Below, in pieces: positions 1 to 31,641 of a stretch of 64,000 nt of DNA. The notes beneath the pieces were generated by a model. It was not told the DNA's origin. It saw only the letters and a list, made by a program, of their open reading frames with translations, and did no database searches. Position 1 is the stretch's first letter, and each line of letters opens with the position of its first letter. A program made the translations under genes and the position numbers. The DNA comes from Aliiroseovarius sp. Z3 (GTDB lineage Bacteria; Pseudomonadota; Alphaproteobacteria; Rhodobacterales; Rhodobacteraceae): contig NZ_JAFMZK010000005.1 of the NCBI RefSeq assembly GCF_029105185.1, forward strand, positions 1-64,000, read 5' to 3'.

Positions 1-1080
<1,080 letters not shown>

Positions 1081-18826: not shown

Positions 18827-20179
18827 GTGGTTGACAAACTTTTCGGAACCGATGGCGTGCGCGGGCTGGCAAACAGCTGGCCGATGACCGCTGAAATGGC
18901 TTTGAAACTTGGCGCAGCCGCTGGCCGTCACTTTCGCCGTGACGGGTCGAACGGCCATCGGGTTGTGATCGGCAAGGATACGCGATTGTCGGGTTATATG
19001 CTGGAAAACGCGTTGACCGCGGGTTTGACCTCGACCGGTATGAACGTGTTGTTGCTTGGTCCGGTGCCGACACCTGCCGTGGGGCGATTGACTCATTCGA
19101 TGCGGGCTGATCTGGGGATCATGATTTCGGCCTCGCACAACCCCTATCATGACAACGGCATCAAGTTCTTCGGCCCCGATGGTTTCAAATTGTCGGACGA
19201 GGACGAGGCAGAGATCGAACGCCTTGTGCATCATGGGGTTGAACCGGTGCAGAACCAGAACATCGGGCGCGCCAAGCGGATCGACGAAGGGCGGATGCGC
19301 TATACTGAATACCTCAAAACCACCTTCCCGGAAAACAAGCGCCTGACGGGCATCAAGGTCGTGATCGACTGCGCCAATGGCGCCGCCTATCGCACCGCGC
19401 CGGAAACACTTTGGGAGCTGGGGGCCGAGATCGTACCGGTGGGCGTTGCGCCGGACGGCACGAATATCAACAAAGGGTGCGGATCGACCGATACGGCTTT
19501 GGCCGCGCGGACGGTCGTGGAAACCGGGGCTGATCTGGGCATCTGTCTGGACGGTGACGCCGACCGCATCATGATCATCGACGAAAAAGGGCAGGTCGCA
19601 GATGGTGACCAGATCATGGGCCTGTTTGCCAGCCATTGGGCCAGCGAGGGGCGCTTGAAAGGTGGCAAATTGGTCGCGACCGTCATGTCCAATCTTGGGC
19701 TTGAACGGTTCATGGCCGCCAACGGGCTAGAGCTTCTGCGGACCAAGGTCGGCGACCGGCATGTGGTCGAGGCGATGCGCGCCGGGGGATACAATCTGGG
19801 CGGCGAGCAGTCAGGCCATATTGTAATGACCGATTTTGCGACAACGGGCGATGGTCTGCTGGCAGGTATTCAGTTTCTGGCCTGTATGATCGAAACTGGT
19901 AAACCTGCATCCGAGCTGTGTAAAGTGTTCGACACTGTGCCGCAGCTTCTGAAAAATGTCCGCTATTCTGCAGGGCAAACACCGTTGGAGGCGGATCGTG
20001 TGAAAGCCGTCATCTCGGACGCCGAGACGAAACTGAACGGGCAGGGGCGTTTGTTGATCCGCAAGTCAGGCACGGAACCCCTGATCCGCGTCATGGCAGA
20101 ATGCGAGGATGACGCATTGCTGGCCGAGGTCGTTGACGGCATCGTGGCCGAGGTGGAAACTGTTGCGTCAGGGGGCTGA
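18827..20179 (+). CDS. glmM: Phosphoglucosamine mutase
   Basis: GlmM interconverts glucosamine-6-phosphate and glucosamine-1-phosphate on the way to UDP-GlcNAc, for peptidoglycan and LPS. It has 450 residues and starts at GTG 18827 ([13 protein letters not shown]), the standard GlmM N terminus, with AAGAGAGAG upstream. The catalytic phosphoserine is in [14 protein letters not shown] (Ser 103), the metal-binding loop is DGDADR and the phosphate-binding loop is [12 protein letters not shown]. The 3' end overlaps the convergent transporter gene by 12 bases. Confidence 0.97.
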
Positions 20180-27606: not shown

Positions 27607-28266
27607 ATGGACGACGATAGCGTGGCAGACGTTAAACAGGGACAGAAAGACGCCTATGAACTGATCCTCGAAGCGATCGACACAGGCACATACAAACCCG
27701 GCGACCGATTGGTCGAAAGCGAACTGGCAGACAGGTTCGGTGTGTCTCGTACCCCGATCCGCGAGGCGCTTCAGCGGCTTGAAACCCAATCGCTTTTGAC
27801 ACGGGACGGGCGTAGTCTGATCGTTGCCTCGTTGAGCCATAATCAACTGGCCGAACTTTATGTCGTGCGATCCGCGCTTGAGGGGCTGGCCGCGTCACTT
27901 GCGGCCCAACACGCAACACCGGAAGAAATCAGCGTGCTGCGCGACATGGTCGACGAGGATCGGAAGCGACTTTCTGATCCCGCTGCCCTGTCGCGGTCGA
28001 ACAGACGATTCCATAAGCAACTGCATCTTGCGTCCCATAACCGTTATCTGGTGCAGCAGCTTGATCTGGTGCACCGCACGATGGCCCTGCTTGCGACGAC
28101 CTCACTGGCGGCTGAAGGACGAAGCGAAAAAGCAATTTCCGAACATGATGCAATCGTCACCGCGATCGAGGCTCGGGATCAATCGGCAGCGCACGAGGCA
28201 CTCAAGACCCATATCTCAAAAGCGTTCGAAACGCGGATCAAGCTGGATTCAATGGCGGGAGAGTGA
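27607..28266 (+). CDS. GntR-family regulator (FCD domain)
   Basis: A 219-residue regulator with an N-terminal GntR winged helix (YELILEAIDTGTYKPGDRLVESELADRFGVSRTPIREALQRLE, residues ~17-60) and a C-terminal all-helical FCD domain with the metal/ligand His residues in RRFHKQLHLASHN and SEHDAIV. The start may be ATG 27607 or GTG 27622; neither has a well-spaced ribosome binding site. The gene is isolated, and its 3' end overlaps the convergent glycosyltransferase gene by 29 bases. The ligand is unknown, but small carboxylates are usual for the family. Confidence 0.9.
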   Translation: MDDDSVADVKQGQKDAYELILEAIDTGTYKPGDRLVESELADRFGVSRTPIREALQRLETQSLLTRDGRSLIVASLSHNQLAELYVVRSALEGLAASLAAQHATPEEISVLRDMVDEDRKRLSDPAALSRSNRRFHKQLHLASHNRYLVQQLDLVHRTMALLATTSLAAEGRSEKAISEHDAIVTAIEARDQSAAHEALKTHISKAFETRIKLDSMAGE

Positions 28267-30214
28267 CGGCCTCGGCATCGGGTTCGTCGAACTTCCCGTG
28301 CTGGGTCTTGTCCCAGTAAAACGGCTTTGTGACGATCTCGGTAAACCCTTTCATCGCGGCCAGCGACGCCAGGGGATAATAGAAATGCAAGGTCGGCACC
28401 CAAAACCGAAGCCATCGCAGCTTTGCGTTGCTGACCGCCTGAATGCCCACGGTTATGGTTAACAACTCGGTCGCCATGAAGACGGTGCCTAGAATGATCA
28501 ATAGTTCGTTCGGCATCACGCCGCGGAGCGGGTGGGGCAGGCCAAGGGGAAAGGCCCAGAAGGTCCACAGGATCGGCGCCAGCAGGAATTGTGACAGGCT
28601 GCCCAGAAACAGGATCTGAAAGCCCAGGAACTTCCACCATCCCAGATCCTGCAGTAACTTCCGGGGCCGGCGCATGTGAACGCCATAGGTCATGGCGTAT
28701 CCCTTGATCCAGCGCGATCGTTGTTTGATCCACGGCCAGACGCGGCAATTGGCTTCTTCTTCGGTCAGCGTGTCGATCAGCTCGGTCCGATAGCCGTGAC
28801 GCGCCAGCCGGATGCCCAGATCGGCATCTTCGGTGACGTTATGCGCGTCCCAACGTCCCAGCTCCTCAAGCGCGTTGCGGCGGAAAAACAGGGTGGTGCC
28901 GCCCAATGGGATGGCAAACCCCGCGCGTTCGACACCGGGCAGAACGATCCCCCACCATGTTGCGTATTCAACGGTAAAACAACGGCTCAGCCAGTTGGTG
29001 CGCGCGTTGTAGAAGCCCAGCTTGCCTTGCAAACAGGCAACCTCGGCCCCGCGTTCGCCAAACCGGCGCACGACCTTGTGGATCTGGTCGGGGTCCGGAG
29101 CATCCTCGGCGTCATAGACACCGATCACCGAGCCGCGGCAGAAATCCAGCGCAAAGTTCATCGCGCGCGGTTTGGTTTTTACAACCCCGCGCGGGACCAC
29201 GATCTGCCGCATCCAGCGCGGCAAGTCCGCCTGTGCAAGAGTTTCTTGCGTCAAGGCATCGTCTTCTTCGACCACGAGGCACACGTCGAGCAACTCTTTT
29301 GGATAAGACAGGCGCGCCAGGCGTTTCACCAAACGCCCGGCAATCTCGCGTTCTTTGTAAAGTGGCACGAGGATGGAAACCGTGGGGAGTTTCAGAAACC
29401 CGTGTTTTGCTGGTGGCGACAAAGGGTCTGGCGGCGTGTTCGGTCGCCTGCGCCAATATTGAATGGCTGCAATCCCCTTGAGGGCCGAGTTCAGAAGCAG
29501 TGTCAGAACAGCCCAAATCACCAGCGTCAGAAAACCAGCGAAGGTCGAGATCACGAAGACCGCGCACAGCCCGATCAAAAGCGCAGCGGCCATGCGCGCG
29601 ACGGAACCCGCCTGCCATCCGCGGCAGCTTTCCACTTCGGAGACGCGCGTTTCAGCGCGCTGCGCCAGTGATCTGTGCCGCATGGCCACCAGCGCGGCTT
29701 GGATGTCGCCCTCTGGTGCCACCGCCAGGAAGCATCGCCCCCAGCTTGCGGGAAAGGTGCGCGATAATTCTGAAAATTCATCAGGGCGTGAACAAATAAT
29801 GACCGTCGCCCCACCGACTGTTTTCCACGGGACAATGCCTTTCCTGATGCAGAACGCTGCGCCCAGTTGGTCGATAAGGCGTACATCTGGCGGTTCTCGA
29901 TGCAGATCGGCAATCTGACAACCGTATTGCCGGGCCAATCCTGCATAAAGATCAGCCTCGCGCACCCAGCCTTGCGTCAGAAGAATGTCGCCAAACCGTG
30001 CATCCTCGCGCGCTTGAAGCGATACCGCCATGGCAAGGTTTTCCGGGCTAAGCGCCCCCATTTCGACAAGGATTTGCCCAAGCGGCTTGCGCTGGGCGCG
30101 CCGTCGGCCGGTCGCGGCCCGTGCCTGCGGCAAGGGGGGGCTGTCAGATTGGATAAGATGCAGGTTGGTGGTGGGCATCGTCGTGCTCGTTCCTGTGTCG
30201 GACCGAACGAACAT
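28238..30214 (-). CDS. Membrane glycosyltransferase (GT2) with N-terminal MshEN (c-di-GMP-type) domain
   Basis: A 658-residue protein. Residues 44-67 and 73-96 are two 24-residue MshEN-type motifs with a 5-residue spacer (LGxxLVxxGxLxxxxL...Q, then RFGxxLLxxG...LxxxLxxQ), the arrangement known to bind c-di-GMP in MshE-type ATPases. Two membrane helices (~208-244) precede a processive GT2 domain with DAED (~368), TED (461-463) and QRSRW (498-502), the D,D,D,QxxRW set of cellulose-synthase-like enzymes. Three more membrane segments end the protein. It resembles NfrB with the domain order reversed. ATG 30214 follows AAGGGG; ATG 30178 is an alternative, lying 50-65 bases from a CtrA-like palindrome. 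It likely makes an exopolysaccharide. Confidence 0.85.
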   Translation of the reverse strand: MFVRSDTGTSTTMPTTNLHLIQSDSPPLPQARAATGRRRAQRKPLGQILVEMGALSPENLAMAVSLQAREDARFGDILLTQGWVREADLYAGLARQYGCQIADLHREPPDVRLIDQLGAAFCIRKGIVPWKTVGGATVIICSRPDEFSELSRTFPASWGRCFLAVAPEGDIQAALVAMRHRSLAQRAETRVSEVESCRGWQAGSVARMAAALLIGLCAVFVISTFAGFLTLVIWAVLTLLLNSALKGIAAIQYWRRRPNTPPDPLSPPAKHGFLKLPTVSILVPLYKEREIAGRLVKRLARLSYPKELLDVCLVVEEDDALTQETLAQADLPRWMRQIVVPRGVVKTKPRAMNFALDFCRGSVIGVYDAEDAPDPDQIHKVVRRFGERGAEVACLQGKLGFYNARTNWLSRCFTVEYATWWGIVLPGVERAGFAIPLGGTTLFFRRNALEELGRWDAHNVTEDADLGIRLARHGYRTELIDTLTEEEANCRVWPWIKQRSRWIKGYAMTYGVHMRRPRKLLQDLGWWKFLGFQILFLGSLSQFLLAPILWTFWAFPLGLPHPLRGVMPNELLIILGTVFMATELLTITVGIQAVSNAKLRWLRFWVPTLHFYYPLASLAAMKGFTEIVTKPFYWDKTQHGKFDEPDAEAVTLPPLNPA

Positions 30215-30222
30215 GGCGCCCC

Positions 30223-30247
30223 TTTGGTTAACGCGTGGTTAACCAAA
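30223..30247. promoter_or_regulatory. Perfect palindrome containing a full CtrA-type site
   Basis: TTTGGTTAAC (30223-30232) and GTTAACCAAA (30238-30247) are perfect 10-base arms around GCGTG. Inside is TTAA-N7-TTAAC (30228-30243), matching the alphaproteobacterial CtrA consensus on both strands. It lies directly upstream of the MshEN glycosyltransferase gene. As RNA it would also form a hairpin next to the AAGGGG ribosome binding site. Confidence 0.65.
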
Positions 30248-30285: not shown

Positions 30286-31458
30286 TTACGACCGCGCGTC
30301 CATCGCCTGGGCAAACCGTTCAAACAGATAGTAGCTGTCCATCGGGCCGGGGCTGGCTTCGGGGTGATACTGCACCGAGAAGACGGGGCGGTCATTCATG
30401 CGCAAACCACAGTTCGATCCGTCAAACAGCGATACATGGGTTTCGACCACGCCCTCGGGCAGGCTGGCCGTATCCACCGCGAACCCATGGTTCATCGACG
30501 TGATTTCGACCTTGCCGGTGTCGTTGTCTTTCACCGGATGGTTTGCCCCGTGGTGCCCGTGGTTCATCTTGATCGTCCGCGCACCAAGCGCCAGCGCCAG
30601 CATCTGGTGCCCAAGACAAATGCCAAAGACCGGCAGGTCGGTGGTGTCGAGGATGGTCTTGATCATCGGAACCGCATATTCGCCCGTGGCCGCAGGATCC
30701 CCCGGCCCGTTGGACAGGAACACGCCATCGGGGTCATGTGCCAGCACCTCGTCCGCCGTGGCGGTGGCGGGCAGGACGGTGACGTCGCACCCAGCCGAGG
30801 CCAGGCAACGCAGGATGTTACGTTTCGCGCCGTAATCCAGAGCAACCACCTTGTGGCGCGGGTTGGTCTGTTTGGGGTAGCCGTCCGGCCAGGCCCACCG
30901 CATTTCGTCCCATTTATAGCTTTGGGCGCAGGTCACTTCCTTGGCTAGGTCCAGCCCTTCCAGCCCCGAAAACGCGCGGGCCTCAGTGATCAGGGCTTCG
31001 ATGTCGAAATTGCCATCCGGGTCATGTGCGATGGCCACATGCGGCGCACCCTGATGGCGGATCGCGCGGGTCAGGCGCCGCGTGTCCACACCCCCGATCC
31101 CGATCCGGCCGCGCTTTTCCAGCCAATCGACCAGCCGTTCAGTGGCGCGCCAGTTAGATGGTTCGGTCGGATCCCACTTGACCACCATGCCGGCGGCAAC
31201 CGGGTCGCCCGTTTCGTCATCTTCGGGGTTCACGCCGACATTACCGATATGCGGAAAGGTGAAGGTTACGACCTGTCCGGCATAAGACGGGTCGGTCATA
31301 ATCTCTTGATACCCCGTCATTGCGGTGTTGAAACACAGCTCGGCGGTGGTGGTCCCGGTCGCGCCAAACCCATGGCCATAGAATATGGTGCCATCTGCAA
31401 GTGCCAGACAGGCGGTGGGTTTTGCGGGTTGCTGGGCTTGGGCGGTGGCAGCGGACAT
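30286..31458 (-). CDS. carA: Carbamoyl-phosphate synthase small subunit
   Basis: CarA is the glutaminase subunit feeding ammonia to CarB for arginine and pyrimidine synthesis; 390 residues. The N-terminal half has the small-subunit domain (LALADGTIFYGHGFGA, FNTAMTGYQEI). The C-terminal class I amidotransferase has FGICLGHQMLALALG with the nucleophilic Cys, and HPEASPGP with the catalytic His and Glu. Start 31458 follows GGGAGTC; an ATG 21 bases upstream is less likely. carB is not adjacent. It is divergent from yqeY. Confidence 0.96.
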   Translation of the reverse strand: MSAATAQAQQPAKPTACLALADGTIFYGHGFGATGTTTAELCFNTAMTGYQEIMTDPSYAGQVVTFTFPHIGNVGVNPEDDETGDPVAAGMVVKWDPTEPSNWRATERLVDWLEKRGRIGIGGVDTRRLTRAIRHQGAPHVAIAHDPDGNFDIEALITEARAFSGLEGLDLAKEVTCAQSYKWDEMRWAWPDGYPKQTNPRHKVVALDYGAKRNILRCLASAGCDVTVLPATATADEVLAHDPDGVFLSNGPGDPAATGEYAVPMIKTILDTTDLPVFGICLGHQMLALALGARTIKMNHGHHGANHPVKDNDTGKVEITSMNHGFAVDTASLPEGVVETHVSLFDGSNCGLRMNDRPVFSVQYHPEASPGPMDSYYLFERFAQAMDARS

Positions 31459-31641
31459 GTGGCGACTCCCGATCGACAAATTGGCGCGAAACTAGATGTG
31501 CTGGCCCGCCGGGTCAAGAGGCAGCAGGGGCGAGGGCTAATTTTACATTTTGTTTTTTATCAATAGGTTATGTTGTTGCCGCCCCGGTTGAATGCCCATT
31601 CGCTTTTCGATAAGTTGCGAGCTTCGTAAAGGGCACTGCAG

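Follow-up and report, generated by a model that had tools for sequence, protein, structure and literature searches.

Little is known, according to a 2023 article, about how Rhodobacterales make polar adhesins, and the hfs and upp clusters were reported to have no homologues there (PMC9980756). The locus described here lies in a 64,000-nucleotide stretch of Aliiroseovarius sp. Z3 (the window) and raises the question of how a putative polysaccharide synthase gene placed behind the housekeeping gene carA can be switched independently of it. An earlier note, made from the sequence, had suggested c-di-GMP as the signal at protein level and CtrA at gene level.

The synthase and its start codon

The following features, all on the minus strand, describe the gene and its product:
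28238-30178 (-): MshEN-GT2 synthase gene in its likely true frame, 646 aa, ATG at 30178
29927-30085 (-): 53-residue c-di-GMP motif, residues 44-96 (NCBIfam NF053729, MshE-related, E 2.8e-13)
29669-29926 (-): Pfam MshEN match, residues 97-182 (E 2e-8)
28544-29386 (-): GT2 catalytic region, residues 277-557 (TKPRA, DAED, TED, QRSRW)

GT2 models matched residues 277-505 and 366-557. Among 33 aligned orthologues D368-A-E-D371, T461-E-D463 and Q498-RS-RW502, corresponding to the DxD, TED and QxxRW motifs, were invariant, and these motifs indicate that the enzyme probably produces an exopolysaccharide. Hydrophobic stretches at 202-251, 530-552 and 570-591 are putative membrane helices by hydropathy only and flank the catalytic domain on both sides. 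The two 24-residue MshEN motifs of the RLGxx...Q type with their 5-residue spacer, which the note had placed N-terminal to the GT2 domain, were confirmed by NF053729, matching over 53/53 positions as 24+5+24. The domain order is also opposite to that of NfrB, as claimed, since positions 479-582 of the 723-position NfrB profile fall on residues 40-144. None of ten neighbour genes looked like a polysaccharide exporter, and a search for the NfrA_C domain gave no match at E 0.1 anywhere in the genome, with a match in the E. coli control.

The longest open reading frame of the gene (28238-30214, minus strand, 658 codons, ORF P0001) begins at ATG 30214, but ATG 30178 is probably the true start codon. 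Eight of the 20 genus loci (L154, L156-L160, L162, L163) lack an ATG at the place of 30214, and that codon sits upstream of the expected transcription start; orthologue start codons lay most often 57-66 nt past the start of the CtrA box.

The CtrA box behind carA

Upstream of the synthase gene and on the same strand, 43 nt separate two further features:
30286-31479 (-): carA, carbamoyl-phosphate synthase small subunit (TIGR01368, E 1.5e-132)
30227-30242 (-): CtrA box TTAACCACGCGTTAAC, inside a 10-5-10 palindrome at 30223-30247

The palindrome, TTTGGTTAAC-GCGTG-GTTAACCAAA, was the sole match in the window at up to three mismatches (0 expected), and the window has no TTAA-N7-TTAAC outside this spot, where both strands match (0.01 expected). 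The occurrence on both strands, stressed in the earlier note, is real but adds no information: GTTAAC is its own reverse complement, so that the second match is automatic. Over the 3.52 Mb genome this pattern gave 14 matches at about 10 places and a reversed control pattern 7, which leaves the bare pattern an excess of only two to one.

The exact TTAA-N7-TTAA stood ahead of the gene in 110 of 130 family loci, with 1 site in the 560,140 bp of remaining locus sequence. Twelve of the 20 loci without an exact box had a near box scoring at least 10, and 6 reached the positives' minimum of 12.5; control stretches reached a score of 10 in 0/130 coding and 1/130 upstream cases. The box was also found in 75 of 80 named loci, a set that may overlap the 130 unnamed ones, and in all 19 further congeners. 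Its family consensus reads TTAACC-N5-GTTAACC, with A-rich positions at +27/+28. A CtrA orthologue is encoded in the genome (76% identity to the Caulobacter sequence used as query). This conservation strongly supports the prediction of a full CtrA site at activating distance and of CtrA control over the synthase gene, as the note had proposed. Lack of conservation of the palindrome had been named as evidence against that proposal. It did apply to the extended TTTGG/CCAAA dyad, which was absent or changed in most congeners and which we therefore rejected as a functional unit, but the CtrA direct repeat itself was kept in the 110 loci.

In 123 of 130 family loci carA preceded the synthase gene in the same orientation. 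The synthase was present in 138 of 149 family genomes, and its co-occurrence with CtrA was close to complete (both 136, neither 8, glycosyltransferase only 2, CtrA only 3). Nine glycosyltransferase-positive genomes were left out (G015, G017, G022, G054, G091, G119, G122, G142, G147), in most of which the match was weak or partial, but not in G142 (53% identity); L144 and L145 are two pieces of one genome, and L152 and L161-L164 were excluded from alignment A2. The distribution outside the family rests on a class-level search (30 of 240 genomes, 3 of them Rhodobacteraceae), because the order-level search drew only Rhodobacteraceae. Neither the CtrA box nor carA was found at any of 27 outside loci, several of which hold partial genes, two of which (L220, L231) start at the contig start, and whose flank is about 1.5 kb. 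With 110/130 and 75/80 loci inside the family and 0/27 outside, we rejected a chance match as the origin of the box.

The leader hairpin

Between the box and the start codon we noted an inverted repeat around the expected transcription start:
30205-30213 (-): 5' arm of the leader hairpin, TGTTCGTTC, lying before the expected transcription start
30203-30204 (-): expected transcription start, box+38/39, predicted from the rule in PMC6180460 and the A-rich +27/+28
30184-30192 (-): 3' arm of the leader hairpin, GAACGAGCA, followed by the ATG at 30178

The hairpin sequence varies among genera, yet the arms are still complementary. A fold z below -2 was reached by 53 of 110 leaders, compared with 5 of 110 upstream stretches, and 57 leaders failed to reach it; the strongest stems had about -18 to -33 kcal/mol. 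When arms were exchanged between loci, a locus's own arms beat 95% of the cross-locus pairings in 46/110 cases (three controls: 5, 12 and 10 of 110), in 29/75 of the named set (controls 4 and 10) and in 2/72 for carA's own leader; the arms of the Z3 window ranked only 0.20 in this test. The top three of 325 pairs of scanning windows joined 25-40 with 45-60. Over 85 loci, the best z of arm complementarity was 6.8 when anchored on the box, 4.6 on the ATG and 3.3 on the carA stop. Loop centres fell at box+40 to +45 in 56/87 real stems versus 218/705 shuffled ones, with a similar overall spread (sd 8.0 versus 8.3), a clustering that is about half explained by the choice of folded stretch, and the small sds of loop-centre position came from a pre-filtered set. 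Inside the genus, the nine pairs of the stem were formed in 74% of cells, and covariation there was not above shuffles (0.065 versus 0.049, 68/500 shuffles as high).

Since the expected CtrA start lies inside the hairpin, the ribosome site should be covered in mRNA reading through from carA and left open in mRNA made from the CtrA promoter. The predicted cost of opening this site was 7.5 kcal/mol in the CtrA mRNA, 13.2 in the read-through and 9.0 in a read-through carrying a foreign 5' arm, and at 47 of 88 loci the own 5' arm raised the cost above that of 95% or more of the swaps. Twelve of the 110 boxed leaders had no rule-called start codon, and 88 of the other 98 entered this test. The Z3 leader was analysed apart because the start rule chose the first ATG; its values were 7.8 (CtrA mRNA), 14.7 (read-through) and 8.0 kcal/mol (swapped arm).

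Other roles can be envisaged for this intergenic stretch. The hairpin might serve carA, as its terminator or as protection of its mRNA 3' end, and overlap the synthase leader merely through the short intergenic space. This would fit the short distance from carA stop to box (below 60 nt in 83/107 loci), the rarity of a terminator-like site after carA (2 of the 35 loci whose space there measures 40 nt or more), and five leaders (L053, L055, L097, L116, L044) that resemble a hairpin with a T-run. However, a perfect stem with a T-run occurred in 3/110 leaders, so that a canonical intrinsic terminator was rejected for most loci, and TTTT at +50 to +64 in 10/110; complementarity was sharpest on the box anchor and weakest on the carA stop, and strong pairing was equally frequent with carA at least 60 nt off (11/24) or nearer (35/83). 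We therefore consider a role for carA possible but somewhat unlikely. To take instead the 10-5-10 palindrome for a mere carA terminator or a chance match, unrelated to CtrA, appears very improbable: a perfect dyad does stand about 40 nt past the carA stop, and the bare pattern is only weakly enriched in the genome, but the TTAA-N7-TTAA spacing is what was conserved rather than the dyad, no T-run follows the palindrome, and neither box nor carA was found at the 27 loci outside the family. An improbable third reading would move the transcription start further upstream, so that the mRNA made under CtrA would carry the hairpin and use it to sense temperature or to bind an sRNA or protein. An SD-like 4-mer lay within the 3' arm in 41/66 strong hairpins (a count without control), and two of the seven boxed loci without carA found upstream, L243 and L290, still rank in the best 5%, which lies outside the prediction of insulation from carA alone. 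Against it, the Cereibacter sphaeroides start rule (PMC6180460) puts the start at the boundary of 5' arm and loop, in agreement with which the A-rich +27/+28 would be the A at -11; the strongest stems are very stable, and the arm sequences differ among genera, whereas a common ligand needs a shared sequence.

The c-di-GMP motif, the proposed switch and known systems

In the Z3 synthase 17 of the 22 motif positions matched, against at most 12 after shuffling, and its 18 scored congeners kept 15-19, L149 being unscorable. Among the 130 family orthologues the motif was clearly kept in 63, at shuffled level in 42, intermediate in 22 and unscorable in 3, on a gapless score that turns out low for an insertion-bearing orthologue. 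These losses require at least five changes on a quick tree, several of them independent, with 65 of the 129 inner branches weakly supported. To judge from these scores, the motif was lost repeatedly in the family while the CtrA box persisted. Control by c-di-GMP at protein level thus has sequence support in the genus but, given 42 orthologues at shuffled level, 22 intermediate and 3 unscorable, it would not be family-wide. The proline that opens motif 1 in place of arginine, seen in the note as a possible reason for reduced affinity, is no peculiarity of Z3: P was the commonest first residue among the 63 motif-bearing orthologues (32, R 11).

It is conceivable that MshEN no longer usefully binds c-di-GMP and that the synthase is under CtrA alone. 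The degenerate and unscorable motifs with their several independent losses point in this direction, as does the proline, since the first R of the MshE motif stacks on guanine (PMC5013675). We find this unlikely for Z3 in view of its own score and those of its congeners, and of the three GGDEF proteins encoded in the genome.

The reading we prefer is that of an inner-membrane processive GT2 synthase, probably making a surface polysaccharide and stimulated by c-di-GMP via its N-terminal MshEN domain. In Rhodobacteraceae its gene would have its own CtrA-activated promoter behind carA, with the box near the -35 position and the promoter placed within the inverted repeat. A carA read-through mRNA, having both arms, would fold and hide the ribosome-binding site; the CtrA-started mRNA would begin near the loop, without the 5' arm, and be translated. 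The hairpin would in this way insulate the synthase from carA transcription, and the enzyme would therefore be made only with CtrA active and be fully active only at high c-di-GMP. Domain order, box conservation, carA synteny, arm complementarity and the changed predicted ribosome-site access are computed results. CtrA binding and activation, the start site, translational silencing, c-di-GMP binding and the polymer are what we infer from them. We give this model as a whole slightly better than even odds, about 55%. Its extension to a family-wide three-level switch (CtrA transcription, T4-type leader, c-di-GMP), with the polar or rosette polysaccharide of Rhodobacterales as product, is tentative and probably goes too far.

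With its presence in 138/149 genomes, its CtrA box and, often, MshEN, the synthase is a concrete candidate for filling both gaps in knowledge on polar adhesins in Rhodobacterales. No paper on this gene was among the matches listed in our literature searches, which found none joining carA, CtrA and a glycosyltransferase, nor one combining three of the four topics CtrA regulon, exopolysaccharide, glycosyltransferase and binding site; "glycosyl" is absent from the main texts of PMC4046655, PMC2877005, PMC6473078 and PMC12363192. The gene may still figure in a subscription paper or in a supplementary list such as that of the 101 CtrA promoters of D. shibae, both outside the texts searched.

The closest enzyme is NfrB of Escherichia coli, a c-di-GMP-controlled GT2-MshEN synthase working with NfrA and YbcH (PMC8669469). 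Both combine a GT2 domain bearing DxD, TED and QxxRW with an MshEN domain, and both probably make a secreted polymer. NfrB, however, has GT2 first and MshEN at the C-terminus, whereas MshEN is N-terminal in Z3, where the NfrA_C domain and a neighbouring exporter were not found; the accessible part of PMC8669469 is silent on anything like a CtrA box and leader hairpin behind carA. The two 24-residue motifs with a 5-residue spacer are those of the MshEN receptor domain, for which fusions to glycosyltransferases have been mentioned (PMC5013675), although motif 1 begins with P in Z3 and the motif is degenerate across a large part of the family.

In the CtrA flagellar promoters of Cereibacter (Rhodobacter) sphaeroides the box lies 23-24 nt before the start, with an A at -11 (PMC6180460). 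The putative Z3 promoter resembles them in predicted box-start distance and in the A expected at -11, but the accessible part of that article describes neither a ribosome-site hairpin around the start nor a housekeeping gene upstream. Such a hairpin is known from long transcripts of phage T4 gene e, soc and I-TevI, and for gene e and I-TevI the short transcripts of a late promoter lack the 5' arm (PMC3014915, PMC2988022). The predicted Z3 leader should follow the gene-e logic of a promoter inside a ribosome-site hairpin. If this is true, it would let a gene with developmental timing stand downstream of a housekeeping gene with no terminator between them. Unlike the phage late promoter of T4, the one in Z3 would be a chromosomal CtrA promoter kept family-wide with changing arm sequences and, if the three-level switch holds, a conserved case of promoter-in-hairpin insulation whose logic outlasts the sequence of the hairpin.

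The synthase and its CtrA box

The earlier note had read two MshEN motifs ahead of a GT2 polymerase, with a CtrA-type site before the gene, and this sequence observation was correct:

28238-30214, minus strand: open reading frame of the MshEN-GT2 synthase
residues 44-67 and 73-96: two MshEN motifs with a 5-residue spacer (NF053729 profile match)
residues 97-182: remainder of the MshEN domain (Pfam match)
GT2 synthase part: motifs TKPRA, DAED, TED and QRSRW (alignment of orthologues)
30227-30242, minus strand: CtrA box TTAACCACGCGTTAAC

The four GT2 motifs were invariant or nearly so in 33 aligned orthologues, and hydropathy gave putative membrane stretches at residues 202-251, 530-552 and 570-591. 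The C-terminal part of the NfrB profile matched the N-terminal part of the synthase, so the order of parts is reversed: MshEN is C-terminal in NfrB of E. coli, whereas here it is N-terminal, before GT2. Membership of an NfrB system was rejected, given this reversed order and a genome (3.52 Mb, 11 contigs) in which no NfrA_C domain was found. A scan of ten neighbouring proteins revealed no polysaccharide exporter; a phosphoglucomutase/phosphomannomutase gene (18827-20179) situated some 8 kb away from that of the synthase is a possible source of sugar nucleotides. Named relatives belong to the Rhodobacteraceae, the closest with a genus name being Aliiroseovarius sp. PrR006 (78%); an unclassified MAG reached 91%. 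One congener locus (L149, genome G168) carries an in-frame TAG within the synthase match, either a broken gene or a sequence error. At L115 (G009) and at L144 and L145 (G105) the MshEN and GT parts lie on separate or frame-broken reading frames; in G105 some 38 kb separates the two pieces, the boxes adjoining the N-terminal one.

The family sample comprised 149 genomes, 138 of them GT-positive, and 130 loci were taken from 129 of those. An exact TTAA-N7-TTAA preceded the synthase gene in 110 of the 130 loci, the remaining sequence of which, 560,140 bp in total, held a single such site. A near box scoring at least 10 was present in 12 of the 20 loci without an exact one (controls: 0/130 coding and 1/130 upstream stretches). 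Aligned sites gave the consensus TTAACC-N5-GTTAACC, with the start codon most commonly 57-66 nt from the box start. The box recurred in 75/80 named loci and in all 19 further congeners with the gene start covered. Upstream on the same strand lay carA (TIGR01368) in 123/130 family loci and in 72/80 named loci, three of the eight scored as lacking it having less than 700 nt of upstream DNA; in 83/107 loci fewer than 60 nt separated the carA stop from the box. Outside the family, 7 of 27 loci encoding synthase relatives, some partial, scored at least 14/22 for the MshEN motif; none of the 27 had an exact box within 500 nt or carA in the flank covered.

Since the bare pattern matched just 14 times in the window's whole genome, against 7 for the reversed pattern, the case for CtrA rests on conservation. 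On this ground the CtrA half of the earlier interpretation is now strongly supported.

Where the window has the TTTGG/CCAAA dyad across its box, seven congeners (L154-L160) have another inverted repeat of 10 bp, ATGGCGGGTT/AACCCGCCAT, overlapping theirs. A weak family-wide signal was present immediately 5' of the box (-25..-15 with -10..0, z 3.2). Other TTAA-N7-TTAAC sites in the genome (L002, L004, L006, L007, L014) neighbour genes for PAS-domain (one with HisKA), Hpt, RTX and Hint_2 proteins.

CtrA and c-di-GMP across the family

The window's genome encodes a CtrA orthologue. Across the 149 genomes, 136 had both GT and CtrA, 8 neither, 2 GT only and 3 CtrA only, including weak GT matches in G017 and G119; the counts are not independent events, because the eight double negatives may be deep branches. 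G008 had a divergent GT without a box, and CtrA was not found there; in G006 boxes were present and CtrA was not found among the 19 of 38 candidates scored. In genus g151 of the order sample, 6 of 13 genomes (G192, G252, G253, G260, G275, G284) lacked the synthase at E 1e-30 despite having CtrA.

Among 130 orthologues the c-di-GMP motif scored at least 14/22 in 63, 11-13 in 22 and at most 10 in 42, three being unscorable; shuffled N-termini reached 12 at most. On a quick tree of GT cores, 15 changes were needed to explain the kept-motif label, as against a shuffled mean of 36, and well-supported branches forced at least five of them. Repeated loss is thus likely, though unproved, because all five outgroup rows were chosen as motif-bearing. 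The box was retained in 54/63 loci with the motif and 35/45 without it or unscored. Control of the synthase by c-di-GMP, the other half of the earlier interpretation, is supported by sequence for the window's genus, where 18 scored congeners keep the motif and the window's genome encodes three GGDEF proteins, but not as a property of the whole family.

A leader hairpin between box and start codon

When box+17 to box+70 was folded, z fell below -2 in 53/110 leaders, against 5/110 for the stretch upstream of the box. The arm sequences vary between genera. To see whether the arms of one locus fit each other, every 5' arm was matched against the 3' arm of its own locus and against 3' arms taken from the others. 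The native combination ranked in the top 5% at 46/110 loci, as compared with 5, 12 and 10 of 110 in three control pairings, and at 29/75 in the named set (controls 4 and 10). In carA's own leader this held for 2/72. A scan of 325 pairs of segments placed the three strongest signals all at +25..40 with +45..60. In a further scan of 85 loci, lined up in turn on three anchors, the signal was sharpest on the box (z 6.8; ATG 4.6; carA stop 3.3). This anchored scan replaces a weakened statistic on loop centres: these fell at box+40..45 in 56/87 real and 218/705 shuffled stems with a similar overall spread, so that the clustering is partly made by the choice of folded stretch. The stem occurs in the genus of the window, yet covariation there did not exceed shuffles, and the window's own arms ranked only 0.20 in the swap test. 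Strong arms were retained in 2/7 boxed loci without carA found upstream.

A proposed promoter within the hairpin

In Cereibacter sphaeroides, 23-24 nt separate the box from CtrA-dependent starts downstream, which have A at -11 (PMC6180460). By this rule box+38/39 would be the expected start of the synthase mRNA; in aligned family sites, positions box+27/+28 are enriched in A. The expected start should fall where the 5' arm passes into the loop, which would put the promoter inside the hairpin; an mRNA begun there by CtrA could not form the stem. Opening the ribosome site was predicted to cost 7.5 kcal/mol in the CtrA mRNA, 13.2 in the read-through mRNA from carA and 9.0 in read-through with a foreign 5' arm, and in 47/88 loci the own arm raised the cost above that of 95% or more of the swapped arms. 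The window's leader (ATG 30178) gave 7.8, 14.7 and, with a swapped arm, 8.0 kcal/mol. That the hairpin insulates the synthase is a new proposal, computational in its support. The proposed placing of a promoter within a hairpin follows the same logic as the leaders described for gene e and I-TevI of phage T4 (PMC3014915, PMC2988022).
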